64,000 nt of DNA, taken from Methanobacteriaceae archaeon (GTDB taxonomy: Archaea; Methanobacteriota; Methanobacteria; Methanobacteriales; Methanobacteriaceae). Shown here piece after piece: positions 4,574-9,777 of this stretch. The position numbers and the translations under genes are program-made. How positions within the stretch are numbered: the first letter of the stretch is position 1; the number at the start of each line of letters is the position of its first letter. The stretch spans positions 1 through 64,000 of the forward strand of contig JAHKLT010000026.1 in the NCBI GenBank assembly GCA_020854915.1. Reading direction: 5' to 3'. The notes under the pieces were generated by a model that saw only the letters and a program-made list of their open reading frames with translations, ran no database searches and had not been told where the DNA came from.

Positions 4574-4882
4574 TTAATATTCATAAGTTCCATTAGTACT
4601 ATTATTGTAAAATTCTCCTTTAGGATAATATATTGCACTTGTATTATTATAAATAACATCTTCTTCTACATCATCTACTTCTTCTAGTTCAATATTAGAA
4701 TGGTTTTCATAAGCAGATAAATTATTAGTTACATTTATCGGAATCGGAGTATTATTAGTTTCCTCTACAGAAGGATCATCCCCAGATATTCCCATCGTTA
4801 TGCCAATCCCAGTTCCTAATCCAAATGCAATTAAAATAGCTACAATAATAATAATCGTTGTGTTTTCATTTCTAGGTTTCAT
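4574..4882 (-). CDS. Small membrane-anchored surface protein, function unknown
   Basis: A 102-residue protein. Residues about 8-31 form a hydrophobic, glycine-containing membrane segment (TTIIIIVAILIAFGLG). The rest is polar and acidic, and includes several Asn-X-Ser/Thr sequons (NVTNN, NHS, NNTS, NNST). This suggests a single-pass protein whose C-terminal tail is outside the cell and could be N-glycosylated. It lies 36 bases upstream of argJ in the same direction, but relatedness is doubtful. No catalytic motif is seen. Confidence 0.5.
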   Translation of the reverse strand: MKPRNENTTIIIIVAILIAFGLGTGIGITMGISGDDPSVEETNNTPIPINVTNNLSAYENHSNIELEEVDDVEEDVIYNNTSAIYYPKGEFYNNSTNGTYEY

Positions 4883-5543: not shown

Positions 5544-6749
5544 TTAAGAAAATAAAGCATAAATAATAGCTATTAATACTGCAACAAAACCAAACCATGC
5601 AAATCCCAAAATAGATGCAAAATAAGAAATTGTAAATACAAGTAAAAACACCCCAAATAATTTAGATTTTTGATTACTTAAAAAATTTATAATAGTTCTT
5701 AAAAACTCAGAAGGAATATTATAAGCATAAATACCATTAGCTATTTCAAAAACAACAAGAGATAAAGGACTAAAAGAATTAATATTATCTGCAAGTTGAG
5801 CTCGTTCTCCTGCTTCGCGTCTACTTTTACCAATACCAGACCTTATCTTAACATTATTATTTACTGCAAACCACGCAGCATCTAAACCTGCACGAATAGC
5901 TAAATCTTTAGAAGGAAACCTAGCAATAAAATCATCACCACCTTCCCTATATCCTTCAAGTTCACCATTACATTCGGTTTCAATGAAGTTCTTAATTCCC
6001 GTCATTAACTCAACTAAATAATCCCTACCATGTTTATCAATAAATTTAGTAGAATCAATCATATCAATAAAAAGATAATTCTGAAGTTCTTCTGTTTTAG
6101 AATTATTTAAAATAAAAGGTGAATCAAAAACTATTGCAAATTCACCACCTAATTTAGTAAAAGAAACTCCTGGGAAGTTACCAATTTCTTTAGTATAATT
6201 AATTGAACGCTCAATAGCTGCAGCACCAGTCATCCCCACAGCAGCAGAAACATTAACATTATTATCAAAACCAATACCAATAAAACGAATAGCTATTTTT
6301 ATTGCAGTATTTTTACTATTTAATTTTGAAATAATTTCAGTAGAACTTTTTTCAACAATTTCCCCTTTTTCATCTAAAATAATATCTGAAAACATATTAA
6401 TTAAATGACTTGGATGATCTAACTCTATAAATAAATAACGATCACTACCCATAACAATATTACTTACAAGAGCATATTCTTCAATTTTATTTTCAGCAGG
6501 TTTTAATTCATAAAAATTATGATTTCTAGGAAGATTTTGCTCTCCTAAATCCCTTAAAAGATTTTGAAAAATACTATCTGTAGTAATATTTGCTTTTTCT
6601 ATTTCAAGTAAAGCAGTTTGAGTATAATTAAATAATTCCACATATTCAGATTCCATAGGATTAGTTGGAAAATATTTAGTTCCAATACTTATAGCATCAT
6701 GTTTAGTTAATAATTTAATAAGAAGCTTAGATAAGCTAAATTTACTCAT
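5544..6749 (-). CDS. Membrane protein with nucleotide-cyclase / GGDEF-like domain
   Basis: A 401-residue protein. Residues about 222-305 resemble a class III cyclase or minimal GGDEF/polymerase-type domain: FIDMIDSTKF at 227-236 offers metal-binding Asp229 and Asp232, EGGDDFIARF at 269-278 matches the GG-D-D/E turn, and KIRSGIG at 301-307 matches a later cyclase strand. An upstream LGGEFAIVF (200-208) looks like a second, degenerate copy of the GGDEF turn, so two tandem domains are possible. Residues about 363-400 form two membrane helices. The start overlaps the end of the upstream nuclease-like gene by 8 bases, so the two are co-translated. A nucleotide-signal-producing role is inferred; GTP cyclohydrolase III also has tandem domains of this fold, so it is an alternative relative. 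Confidence 0.5.
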   Translation of the reverse strand: MSKFSLSKLLIKLLTKHDAISIGTKYFPTNPMESEYVELFNYTQTALLEIEKANITTDSIFQNLLRDLGEQNLPRNHNFYELKPAENKIEEYALVSNIVMGSDRYLFIELDHPSHLINMFSDIILDEKGEIVEKSSTEIISKLNSKNTAIKIAIRFIGIGFDNNVNVSAAVGMTGAAAIERSINYTKEIGNFPGVSFTKLGGEFAIVFDSPFILNNSKTEELQNYLFIDMIDSTKFIDKHGRDYLVELMTGIKNFIETECNGELEGYREGGDDFIARFPSKDLAIRAGLDAAWFAVNNNVKIRSGIGKSRREAGERAQLADNINSFSPLSLVVFEIANGIYAYNIPSEFLRTIINFLSNQKSKLFGVFLLVFTISYFASILGFAWFGFVAVLIAIIYALFS

Positions 6750-7767
6750 CTAACTTTCCTCCTTTAACTAAAATTATCTCAAAATCTCCTGGTTTTTCAA
6801 GTAACATGTCAGGTTTAACAGAAACAAAAGGAAACTTCCAAGATCCTAACCTACCAGCAATAGTACTTGCAATATTCCTTGAATTTTTCTTTATAAAAAC
6901 TTCATCATGAGTGTTTATTCGAATTTCAATATTATAATGAGCATTATCAGAAACTTCATCAGCAATCATTACATTTAATTCAAAATTTCCAGGTTTCATG
7001 AATAAATCGTTTCTAACAGCTATTAATGGTTTCTTTTCTAATCTTAATCTATCTGCAACAGTGACAGAAATATTACCTGCATTTTTTACAACTATTTTAT
7101 AATCCTTAGGATGAACCAATACAAAAATTACATAAGGAGCTGCAATTTCAACATCTTCAACCATATCCATTACTTTGTTAAACAATGGAATTTTTGAAAA
7201 TAAATTTTCAATTTTTGAATCAACATTATTTTCATTATCAATTTTTACAATAGCTTGTTTTACGATATTTAATGGGGAGATTTCAACTCCATTCTTATCA
7301 GAGTAAACATTCCACCTTTTAAAATCCAATTGTTTAATAATCTCATCACAGATATTTTGTAAAATATGTTTATCCCTTTTTGGTTTTCTTATTTTACCAA
7401 AGGTTATATTATCCCCATCAAAAGCAAAAGGAATCCTCATGCTATTAATATCTTTATATTCATCAGTAAAATCTCTAAATTTATCATTAGACAATATTTT
7501 AGCATTTTCCTTTTCAGCTAATTCAAAAATAAAATGATCTGCATTATTACCAGATTCAACTTGTTCAACATTTTCACTTTCTAAAAGCTTTTCAAACTGC
7601 AATTTATCATCAATTTCATGACGAAGAGATGCATCAACAATAATAACAAACTCATCCCCATTTTTTTCTAATGCATCCACTGCAGCAAGAATATTGCTTA
7701 GTTGAGGTTTAGAATCTTTATTTTTTTTATAATGAGCTAAATTAGAACCATCAATAACCACTTTCAC
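6742..7767 (-). CDS. NYN/PIN-type nuclease-like protein with duplicated C-terminal domain
   Basis: A 341-residue protein. Residues 1-115 fit the NYN/Zc3h12a branch of PIN-fold ribonucleases: VVIDGSNLAHY (Asp6, Asn9), IIVDASLR (Asp45), NNADHFI (Asp77) and ILSNDKFRDF (Asp95, Asp99) give the usual acidic cluster. A basic linker (KIRKPKRDK) follows at about 125-133. The C-terminal part contains a repeated unit, residues 229-267 and 295-333, sharing N-x-x-NI, T-x-A-x-RL, V-x-x-D and KPG-x-FE. The gene overlaps the cyclase-like gene by 8 bases. Hydrolysis of RNA is predicted from the fold; no target can be read. Confidence 0.6.
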   Translation of the reverse strand: MKVVIDGSNLAHYKKNKDSKPQLSNILAAVDALEKNGDEFVIIVDASLRHEIDDKLQFEKLLESENVEQVESGNNADHFIFELAEKENAKILSNDKFRDFTDEYKDINSMRIPFAFDGDNITFGKIRKPKRDKHILQNICDEIIKQLDFKRWNVYSDKNGVEISPLNIVKQAIVKIDNENNVDSKIENLFSKIPLFNKVMDMVEDVEIAAPYVIFVLVHPKDYKIVVKNAGNISVTVADRLRLEKKPLIAVRNDLFMKPGNFELNVMIADEVSDNAHYNIEIRINTHDEVFIKKNSRNIASTIAGRLGSWKFPFVSVKPDMLLEKPGDFEIILVKGGKLDE

Positions 7768-8111: not shown

Positions 8112-8555
8112 ATGAATAAAAAAAATTTAGTAATAATATTAATTTGTTTTTTAATAATAGGGGGATTATCTGCTTATTTTGTTTTAAATAATAATATATC
8201 TAAAGAATATAGTGAAATAAAAAATAATACAACCATAAAAAGTACAAATAATACAACCATAAGTAATACGAATAACGAAGTTAATACTAATGTAAATCAT
8301 GAAAACGAAAATGTACAAGAAGTAGAAACCCAAAATTCTGTTCCAAATCAAGAAAATTCAAATTATAATCCTGATGATTATCTATCTTGTGAAGAATTAA
8401 AAGAAAAATACCCTCATATGTCTGATGGTGAATTACAAGAAAGATTTGGTGAGAGAGGTGAAGGTGGAGTTAGTTATGATGGATTAAGAGCAGATGAAAG
8501 AAGAGAACAAATAAGACAAGGAGTTTATAATTATCCATCATATGAAGAATCATGA
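8112..8555 (+). CDS. Membrane-anchored, asparagine/threonine-rich surface protein, function unknown
   Basis: A 147-residue protein. Residues 4-25 are hydrophobic (LVIILICFLIIGG), consistent with an uncleaved signal anchor. Residues about 35-90 are low-complexity and rich in Asn, Thr and Glu, with repeated NNTT sequons. The C-terminal 60 residues are different: polar, with YLSCEELKEKYPHMS and a GERGEGG turn, and may be a small folded domain. An AAAGGAT ribosome binding site precedes the ATG. It is monocistronic. A repeated 92-bp element begins directly after its stop codon. Confidence 0.45.
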   Translation: MNKKNLVIILICFLIIGGLSAYFVLNNNISKEYSEIKNNTTIKSTNNTTISNTNNEVNTNVNHENENVQEVETQNSVPNQENSNYNPDDYLSCEELKEKYPHMSDGELQERFGERGEGGVSYDGLRADERREQIRQGVYNYPSYEES

Positions 8556-8674: not shown

Positions 8675-9421
8675 TTATTTAAGATCATTTCGGTTAAAAT
8701 TACCTAAAACAAAATTTTTTCCACCAATATGATTTAAATATATTTCTATATTATCATCTGAAATATTGTAAACATTATATGAATTTAAATCTTTTCCTCT
8801 AAGCTTATTAGAAGAAACAGAGCCGGCATTAACAAATAATGTATTATTCATTTTCCAAACATTGTGTACATGTTTATGTCCACATATTACAAGATCAACT
8901 TGATGGTCTATTAAACTTTTTAGAATATCTCCTGCATCTGATAATACATTTCTTTCACGACCAGTTTCAGGAATCGGAATTACATGATGATGCATTGCAA
9001 CAATAGTAAAATTATTTTCAAATAAACACTGATCTAATTGTTTATCCATCCATACTTGTTGAGGTCTTCCAATATTACCACTATCAATATCAGGGGAGCT
9101 AGAATCTACACCAACTACAACAAAATTGTTATCTTTAATTAGTTTCCAGCTTCTTTCACCAATAAATTCTTCAAAAGTTTCATATCCTAAATTCCTAGAA
9201 TCATGATTCCCTGGAACAGCATATAAAGGTGGTTTAAACAAAGATAATAATTTTTTAGCTTGAATATATTCTTTATAATAACCTTGATTTGTAATATCTC
9301 CAGTTACTAAAATCATGTCAGGATTTAAACTATTTATTTCTCTAACTGCTTTTAAAAATACTTGCTCATTGAATTCAGTTTTACTTATATGTAAATCAGA
9401 GATATGTGCAATAACTGTCAT
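8675..9421 (-). CDS. Metallophosphoesterase, CpdA/Icc-like
   Basis: A 248-residue calcineurin-type phosphoesterase. All family metal-binding blocks are visible in order: HISDLHIS (8-14), VTGDITNQG (about 40), VPGNHDSR (about 70), MHHHVIP (about 143) and CGHKHVHN (about 179). The arrangement is close to cyclic-nucleotide phosphodiesterases of the CpdA/Icc group, but the family also includes nucleases and nucleotidases. It starts 5 bases after the nac stop codon and so is probably translated with it. Substrate unknown. Confidence 0.75.
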   Translation of the reverse strand: MTVIAHISDLHISKTEFNEQVFLKAVREINSLNPDMILVTGDITNQGYYKEYIQAKKLLSLFKPPLYAVPGNHDSRNLGYETFEEFIGERSWKLIKDNNFVVVGVDSSSPDIDSGNIGRPQQVWMDKQLDQCLFENNFTIVAMHHHVIPIPETGRERNVLSDAGDILKSLIDHQVDLVICGHKHVHNVWKMNNTLFVNAGSVSSNKLRGKDLNSYNVYNISDDNIEIYLNHIGGKNFVLGNFNRNDLK

Positions 9422-9426
9422 GATAT

Positions 9427-9777
9427 CTAAGAGCTTAATTTTAAAATAGCCTCTGCTAAATCTCCATTTGTATCGATTAATGCTTTTTCAGCATCTTCTT
9501 TAGAAACATTTGCTTGATTAGCTACCATTTCTATATCTTCATCAGGAATAATAACTTCTTCTTCAATTTCAATTTCTTGAGCAGTTCCAGAAACTTGATA
9601 TGTTTCTTGACCCATTACATTCATCATACTAACTTCAGCATTAGGAATAAATAATTCTTTATCTTCTAAGCGTATAATAACTTCTTTAACACCTTGAAGC
9701 TCTTTCATATCCATTCCCATTTTCTTCATTTGTCTTTCCATCTGTTTCATTTGTTTTGGATTCATTCCAGGAATCAT
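9427..9777 (-). CDS. nac: Nascent polypeptide-associated complex protein (archaeal NAC alpha)
   Basis: A 116-residue archaeal NAC. The N-terminus is methionine/lysine rich (NPKQMKQMERQMKKMG), the NAC beta-barrel covers residues about 33-70 (VIIRLEDKELFIPNAEV and MGQETYQVSG), and residues about 77-116 form a UBA domain (DIEMVANQANVSKEDAEKAL). The homodimer binds ribosomes near the exit tunnel and contacts emerging chains. GAGGTT precedes the ATG. It heads a short unit with the phosphoesterase. Confidence 0.93.
   Translation of the reverse strand: MIPGMNPKQMKQMERQMKKMGMDMKELQGVKEVIIRLEDKELFIPNAEVSMMNVMGQETYQVSGTAQEIEIEEEVIIPDEDIEMVANQANVSKEDAEKALIDTNGDLAEAILKLSS

Follow-up and report, generated by a model that had tools for sequence, protein, structure and literature searches.

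The window considered here is a 64,000-nucleotide stretch from a Methanobacteriaceae archaeon (contig JAHKLT010000026.1). On its minus strand, a gene for a protein with a NYN-type ribonuclease (RNase) domain lies directly upstream of a gene for a membrane protein with the architecture of a nucleotide cyclase, and the two open reading frames (ORFs) share bases 6742–6749. The pair is a core unit of its lineage, and the cyclase-like architecture of the membrane protein is well supported.

The gene pair and its distribution

The two ORFs and the parts of their products are listed below. Where only residues are given, they refer to the cyclase-like protein, which is encoded on the minus strand.

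6742–7767, minus strand: NYN gene, 341 amino acids, GTG start
6757–7152, minus strand: duplicated C-terminal domain of the NYN protein (residues about 206–337), two beta-alpha-alpha-beta-beta repeats
5544–6749, minus strand: cyclase-like gene, 401 amino acids, ATG start
Residues 1–100: N-terminal alpha/beta domain, from the AlphaFold2 model
6126–6452, minus strand: degenerate palm domain 1 (residues about 100–208), from the duplication test and conservation
Residues about 224–345: catalytic-looking palm domain 2, from the AlphaFold2 model, Foldseek and hhalign
6048–6074, minus strand: first strand of palm 2, LFIDMIDST (residues 226–234), with the candidate metal ligand Asp229; it aligns with LFxDIVGST of class III cyclases
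5928–5948, minus strand: beta-hairpin motif R-x-G-G-D-D-F (residues 268–274), with the second candidate metal ligand Asp272, from conservation
Residues 360–380 and 385–400: two C-terminal hydrophobic helices, from the model and hydropathy; predicted membrane anchor

The original prediction had taken the 8-base overlap to mean that the two genes belong together, and gene order across the family bears this out. In 76 of the 80 named loci, the NYN gene immediately precedes the cyclase-like gene in the same orientation, most commonly with a short overlap, and the same order is found in all 31 loci compared for synteny, so that the pairing is not due to chance. Two of the four exceptions have a contig end beside the pair, and the other two are Methanobrevibacter/Methanovirga loci in which the genes lie apart.

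Both genes are found as single copies in 76 of the 77 good genomes of the family and in 17 of its 17 genera. A profile search with the cyclase-like protein across the whole phylum is positive for 148 of 152 genomes. Four incomplete genomes (G007, G032, G040, G109) lack both genes, a joint absence that may reflect missing contigs and not loss. Named GTDB records with the cyclase-like family come from Methanobrevibacter, Methanosphaera, Methanobacteriaceae and termite-gut genera, the nearest named relative being the protein of Methanobrevibacter sp. OttesenSCG-928-I08 with 80% identity. A homologue with 53% identity is located on a contig labelled Candidatus Bipolaricaulota bacterium (MAG-26; locus L267), which is probably a misbinned Methanobacteriaceae contig and possibly a case of transfer.

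All five genomes of a second phylum also carry the cyclase-like gene. We take one of these genomes to be that of M. kandleri AV19 and hence read the group as Methanopyri. Our archaeal sample comprises 297 genomes from 207 genera, and it holds no convincing match outside Methanobacteriota and Methanopyri. Because it is present in these two groups and absent from the other sampled archaea, the cyclase-like family marks the pseudomurein archaea. The pairing is conserved across Methanobacteriota, a spread that the original prediction had proposed to follow, and we conclude that the pair is vertically inherited and does not represent an island.

A membrane protein with two fused palm domains

The AlphaFold2 model of the cyclase-like protein (pLDDT 85.8) consists of the alpha/beta domain, the two palm domains and the two C-terminal helices. 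The palm domains are the result of an internal duplication, as residues 100–213 and 215–350 align with a hhalign probability of 98.3–98.4% (E about 1e-14). The degenerate upstream copy and the two membrane helices that had been proposed from the letters of the DNA are both recovered in this way. Compared with 20 archaeal class III cyclase domains, the profile of palm 2 reaches a hhalign probability of 96.7% (E=3e-10), versus 56% (E 1e-4) for GGDEF domains and 2.3% for GTP cyclohydrolase III (GCH III), whose sequence set is low in diversity. Searched against PDB sequences, the family profile (hidden Markov model) finds the adenylyl cyclase Rv1900c of M. tuberculosis with E=4e-6 and Ma1120 with E=0.004. 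The top Foldseek matches are bacterial light-activated adenylyl cyclases, AC9 and GCH III (2qv6) with E values of about 5e-6 to 1e-4, and Rv1900c is also returned; among viral structures, Foldseek finds weak GGDEF- and cyclase-like matches only. Among these groups, the intact palm is most similar to class III nucleotidyl cyclases, ahead of GGDEF and GCH III, in agreement with the cyclase-like active site that had been proposed. The cyclase homology domain of class III enzymes, a palm of beta-alpha-beta-beta-alpha-beta topology, is thus recognised in it by profile.

The similarity to class III cyclases (PF00211; Rv1900c, Ma1120 and membrane adenylyl cyclases) extends to single residues, namely the Asp of strand 1 (DxxxS[TS]) and the Asp of the beta-2/beta-3 hairpin. 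We scored conservation on 85 sequences, Methanopyri included. D229 and D272 match both metal-binding Asp residues of class III cyclases in all 85, and S233 and the complete GGDD (residues 270–273) are likewise invariant. R268 is Arg in 80 and Lys in five sequences, and [RK]xGGDD is present in all 80 named loci. The original prediction had staked its claim on a cyclase-like fold and on conservation of Asp229, Asp232 and GGDD. The fold, D229 and GGDD stand; D232 varies, with 72 Asp, seven Asn, four Gly and two Glu. Since D232 occupies the position of Gly in DIVGST of class III cyclases, this variation does not argue against a two-metal site.

The metal ligands are missing from domain 1. The domain retains R104, T174, E180, R181, K199 and E203 as invariant and E133 and E138 as near-invariant residues, and the many invariant positions (E180, R181, K199, E203) show that its sequence is under constraint. 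In class III cyclases, the base is selected at a position in beta-2 of the partner domain, which is Lys in enzymes that use ATP and Glu in those that use GTP. In a hand-read alignment, E133 (83 Glu, two Ser) aligns with this position, which we treat as a lead only. Two domains per chain, one of them degenerate, is the arrangement of C1 and C2 in the class III membrane adenylyl cyclases. The protein differs from class III cyclases in that its catalytic domain is the second one and its anchor is a C-terminal two-helix element.

GGDEF diguanylate cyclases and their archaeal relative MK0296 (PMC2904730) share the R-x-G-G-D-[DE]-F-like motif and the palm topology with the family; the difference lies in the low hhalign probability and in the lack of any PF00990 match in the 25 members searched, and on these grounds we reject membership among the GGDEF enzymes. 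A gene for a GGDEF-like palm protein at about 285 kb in the genome read as M. kandleri (L155:4201-5118, minus strand) is probably MK0296 (PMC2904730). MK0296 was set aside as a member of the family, since by genome position it appears to be this separate gene.

GCH III (PF05165) has to be weighed more carefully, as it is returned by Foldseek and has tandem palm domains in common with the cyclase-like protein. The palm enzyme could then act in small-molecule metabolism, for instance by opening GTP as a second enzyme of the GCH III type, and the chemistry of its partner would be unrelated. A PF05165 match is found in none of three Methanopyri genomes (G140, G163, G166), so the first GTP-opening step needs another enzyme there. 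Almost all Methanobacteriota genomes, this one included, however carry a separate true GCH III, the profile similarity is negligible, and the metal motif is GGDD and not GGDN. With no PF05165 match in the cyclase-like protein itself, we reject membership in GCH III and consider a role of this kind quite improbable.

The partner protein and the ancestral operon

The nuclease domain of the partner matches the Pfam family RNase_Zc3h12a (PF11977) with E=7.6e-23 and 81.4 bits against a cut-off of 23. As in Zc3h12a/Regnase-type NYN RNases, the catalytic-type residues D6, N9, D77 and D95 are present and conserved in the Methanobacteriota partners, which we predict to be RNases of the Zc3h12a type. 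Unlike Zc3h12a/Regnase, the partner has no CCCH zinc finger match and is fused to the duplicated C-terminal domain. The halves of this domain align with a hhalign probability of 97.6% (E=4e-12), in line with the RNase with a duplicated extra domain that the original prediction had read here. Its model is of good quality by pLDDT (84.7), and the fold search returns a best PDB match at E=0.022 and none below 0.001. A search of viral contigs with the NYN protein finds no relative, nor do PHROGs.

Conservation is higher in the C-terminal domain than in the nuclease domain. The protein that adjoins the cyclase in each of the five Methanopyri comprises the C-terminal domain and lacks the NYN part. 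Conversely, short NYN-only proteins of about 167–188 amino acids, which lack the C-terminal domain, occur in several other archaeal families (G288, G356, G204, G331, G399 and others). Because Methanopyri keep the C-terminal domain beside the cyclase and other archaea have NYN-only proteins, we conclude that the C-terminal domain is the obligate partner of the cyclase, and that the RNase was either added to it or lost in Methanopyri.

The genes around the pair in the window are the following.

4574–4882, minus strand: ORF of 102 amino acids between the cyclase-like gene and argJ; small, secreted or membrane-anchored product
8112–8555, plus strand: Asn/Thr-rich ORF of 147 amino acids with an N-terminal hydrophobic segment, between the metallophosphoesterase and NYN genes
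8675–9421, minus strand: calcineurin-like metallophosphoesterase of the CpdA/class III phosphodiesterase type (Pfam PF00149, E=2.8e-22)
9427–9777, minus strand: nascent-polypeptide-associated complex (NAC) protein with NAC and UBA domains, from Pfam; neighbour conserved by synteny

Upstream of the NYN gene lie the plus-strand ORF, the metallophosphoesterase, NAC and rpiA; downstream of the cyclase-like gene, the 102-amino-acid ORF is followed by argJ. The plus-strand ORF has no homologue at the corresponding position in other loci. The 102-amino-acid ORF has no Pfam match and is kept at its position in many genomes. The original prediction had also placed a CpdA-like phosphodiesterase 0.9 kb further on the same strand, past an opposite-strand gene, exactly where the metallophosphoesterase is found. 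The metallophosphoesterase is contiguous with the pair in Methanothermobacter (loci L130/L132) and Methanothermus (L128), names that we inferred in part from gene order and from where the genomes fall in the family tree. In Methanobacteriota, the genes ancestrally follow the order tgtA, NAC, metallophosphoesterase, NYN, cyclase-like gene, (102-amino-acid ORF), argJ and argB. The metallophosphoesterase is thus a member of the same ancestral operon. It belongs to the PF00149 superfamily and scores below the NCBI equivalog cut-off for 3',5'-cAMP phosphodiesterase (58 versus 225 bits). The pair of the Methanopyri is flanked by thiC and a divergent aspartokinase gene.

A nucleotide synthase next to a nuclease is a layout known from antiviral systems, as the original prediction had pointed out, and anti-phage signalling of the CBASS, Pycsar, Panoptes or type III CRISPR kind, with a cyclase and an effector nuclease, would account for it. 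mCpol/OptS of Panoptes and Cas10 likewise combine a GGDD palm nucleotide synthase with a second protein (PMC12657218, PMC12657230), and Panoptes pairs mCpol with an effector (PMC12657218). In contrast to these systems, the pair described here is not mobile, has two fused palms and a membrane anchor, and its partner is unrelated to OptE. The two genes are single-copy core genes with deep vertical conservation and housekeeping neighbours, neither protein has a PADLOC match, the cyclase-like protein has no homologue in phage or plasmid records, and Methanopyri lack the nuclease. With a distribution that is neither patchy nor mobile, we reject membership in a defence system; the antiviral reading is disfavoured and is the least probable of those considered here.

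A proposed signalling role and its alternatives

The pair as such is not new. Among the orthologous groups of pseudomurein archaea, Lupo et al. (2025) list a cluster D, in which the Zc3h12a-like NYN ribonuclease OG0001213 is adjacent to OG0001214, a 'Nucleotide cyclase' with more than one transmembrane segment (PMC11915815). Annotations, adjacency and the restriction to pseudomurein archaea are the same as for our pair, an identity that we draw from annotation, not accession. The expectation of an undescribed pair therefore holds only in part; cluster D is listed without a mechanism. The main text of that paper does not describe the palm duplication, analyse residues or relate the protein to class III, and it is silent on the absence of the NYN domain from Methanopyri and on the surrounding phosphodiesterase-NAC-tgtA operon (PMC11915815). 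The taxonomic range prompts the idea of a link to pseudomurein synthesis. Lupo et al. judge cluster D as probably not part of this synthesis (PMC11915815), and with no contrary evidence in our data we set the idea aside.

A cyclic nucleotide has long been reported from this lineage. In 1986, 3',5'-cAMP was described in Methanothermobacter; archaeal adenylate cyclases are largely unidentified and have been described as probably a new class (PMC8646023, PMC6741144). Class IV cyclase candidates failed when tested in other archaea (PMC8646023). Among our 297 genomes, no PF00211 or PF00990 match over cut-off is reported in Methanobacteriota or Methanopyri, diadenylate-cyclase and other families not having been searched. 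Given the report of cAMP and the lack of such matches within these two searched families, the pair is the leading genomic candidate for a cyclic-nucleotide synthase in these archaea. In a different archaeal family (f6; genomes G134, G198, G217, G359, G376, G393, G410 and G427, loci L165-L172 and L178), we observe three to seven PF00211 matches per genome, which exceeds what 'very few archaeal class III cyclases' would suggest.

We favour the reading, with a probability of roughly 45%, that the pair is a core two-protein unit of pseudomurein-walled methanogens in which a membrane nucleotide cyclase controls the C-terminal domain of its partner through its product or through binding. The cyclase-like protein would be a divergent member of the nucleotide-cyclase palm superfamily with two palms fused in one chain, of which domain 1 would have lost its metal ligands and domain 2 would have retained D229 and D272 of GGDD. 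Most likely it would work as a pseudo-heterodimer, tethered to the membrane by its two C-terminal helices: domain 2 would bind two metal ions, domain 1 would provide conserved substrate contacts at the interface, and a purine nucleoside triphosphate would be converted into a nucleotide that is cyclic or condensed in another way. The partner's duplicated C-terminal domain may bind the cyclase or its product, and it is the likely receptor or binding partner because it is the part retained by Methanopyri. In Methanobacteriota, it could gate the attached NYN RNase, and the CpdA-like phosphodiesterase of the ancestral operon may clear the product where it is present. An extended form of this proposal takes the membrane protein to be the cyclic-nucleotide synthase of pseudomurein archaea and the founder of a new fused-palm class, which together with a NYN receptor-RNase and the phosphodiesterase would form a complete circuit of synthesis, sensing and removal; we consider this complete form doubtful.

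Several points weigh against a cyclase that signals to its partner. The Foldseek TM-scores are low, with 0.2–0.3 for the whole chain and up to 0.55 for a single domain, and Pfam cyclase models are significant for none of the 25 members tested. In the model, a helix follows directly after strand 4, as in GGDEF and GCH III and different from class III. The conserved Asn of the transition-state Asn-x3-Arg motif of class III cyclases is found in neither alpha-4 helix, which contain only R181 and R310. The cyclase activity of the family is a prediction. Control of an RNase cannot be the universal function because the Methanopyri partner has no nuclease. Covariation of rates between cyclase and partner is weak after removal of the background (0.31 for the C-terminal domain, 0.01 for the NYN domain), too weak to be used as an argument. 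Finally, the metallophosphoesterase is absent at E<=1e-20 from three genomes of group g10 that keep the pair. Product removal by this enzyme is for this reason not obligatory, and we dropped it as an obligatory third component; given also its score below the equivalog cut-off, it is accessory at most. Given the missing Asn, the helix after strand 4 and the lack of a Pfam cyclase match, we place the protein in a divergent family of palm cyclases, with a probable mode of action like that of a class III pseudo-heterodimer, and do not count it as a certified class III member.

The missing transition-state Asn and the variable D232 would also fit a pseudoenzyme, in which the palm pair serves as a membrane scaffold or nucleotide sensor without turnover. 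D229, G270, G271, D272 and D273 are however strictly conserved in all 85 sequences, which come from two classes with a deep split, as an active two-metal site predicts, and we regard a loss of turnover as rather improbable.

The main rival to a signalling cyclase is a housekeeping RNA-processing unit. The palm protein would then act on RNA ends or nucleotides in a Thg1- or polymerase-like manner, and the NYN RNase would trim that RNA, close to translating ribosomes or at the membrane, with no second messenger involved. In Methanobacteriota, tgtA (tRNA-guanine transglycosylase) and NAC share the operon, which is consistent with such a role, as is the universal, single-copy and vertical inheritance of the pair. 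The NYN domain also scores against protein-only RNase P, at best with 2e-7 among the members, and a CRISPR-associated NYN protein is an RNA trimmer and not a signal-gated effector (PMC11346440). Against this stand a palm profile that resembles class III cyclases and neither polymerases nor Thg1, the Methanopyri pair between thiC and aspartokinase genes with no nuclease, and a membrane anchor that would be unusual for tRNA processing. On balance we judge RNA processing to be unlikely, if less so than the other alternatives to a signalling cyclase.

For the signalling cyclase that we favour, the cyclase-like gene is a named and directly testable candidate for the source of cyclic nucleotides in these archaea, because it is near-universal in its lineage, has an intact two-metal palm site and shares an operon with a phosphodiesterase. 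If the complete circuit were true, it would represent the first pathway in archaea that couples a nucleotide second messenger to RNA turnover as a core function. The pseudomurein archaea, which dominate methane production in ruminants and in the human gut, carry the pair as a molecular signature.
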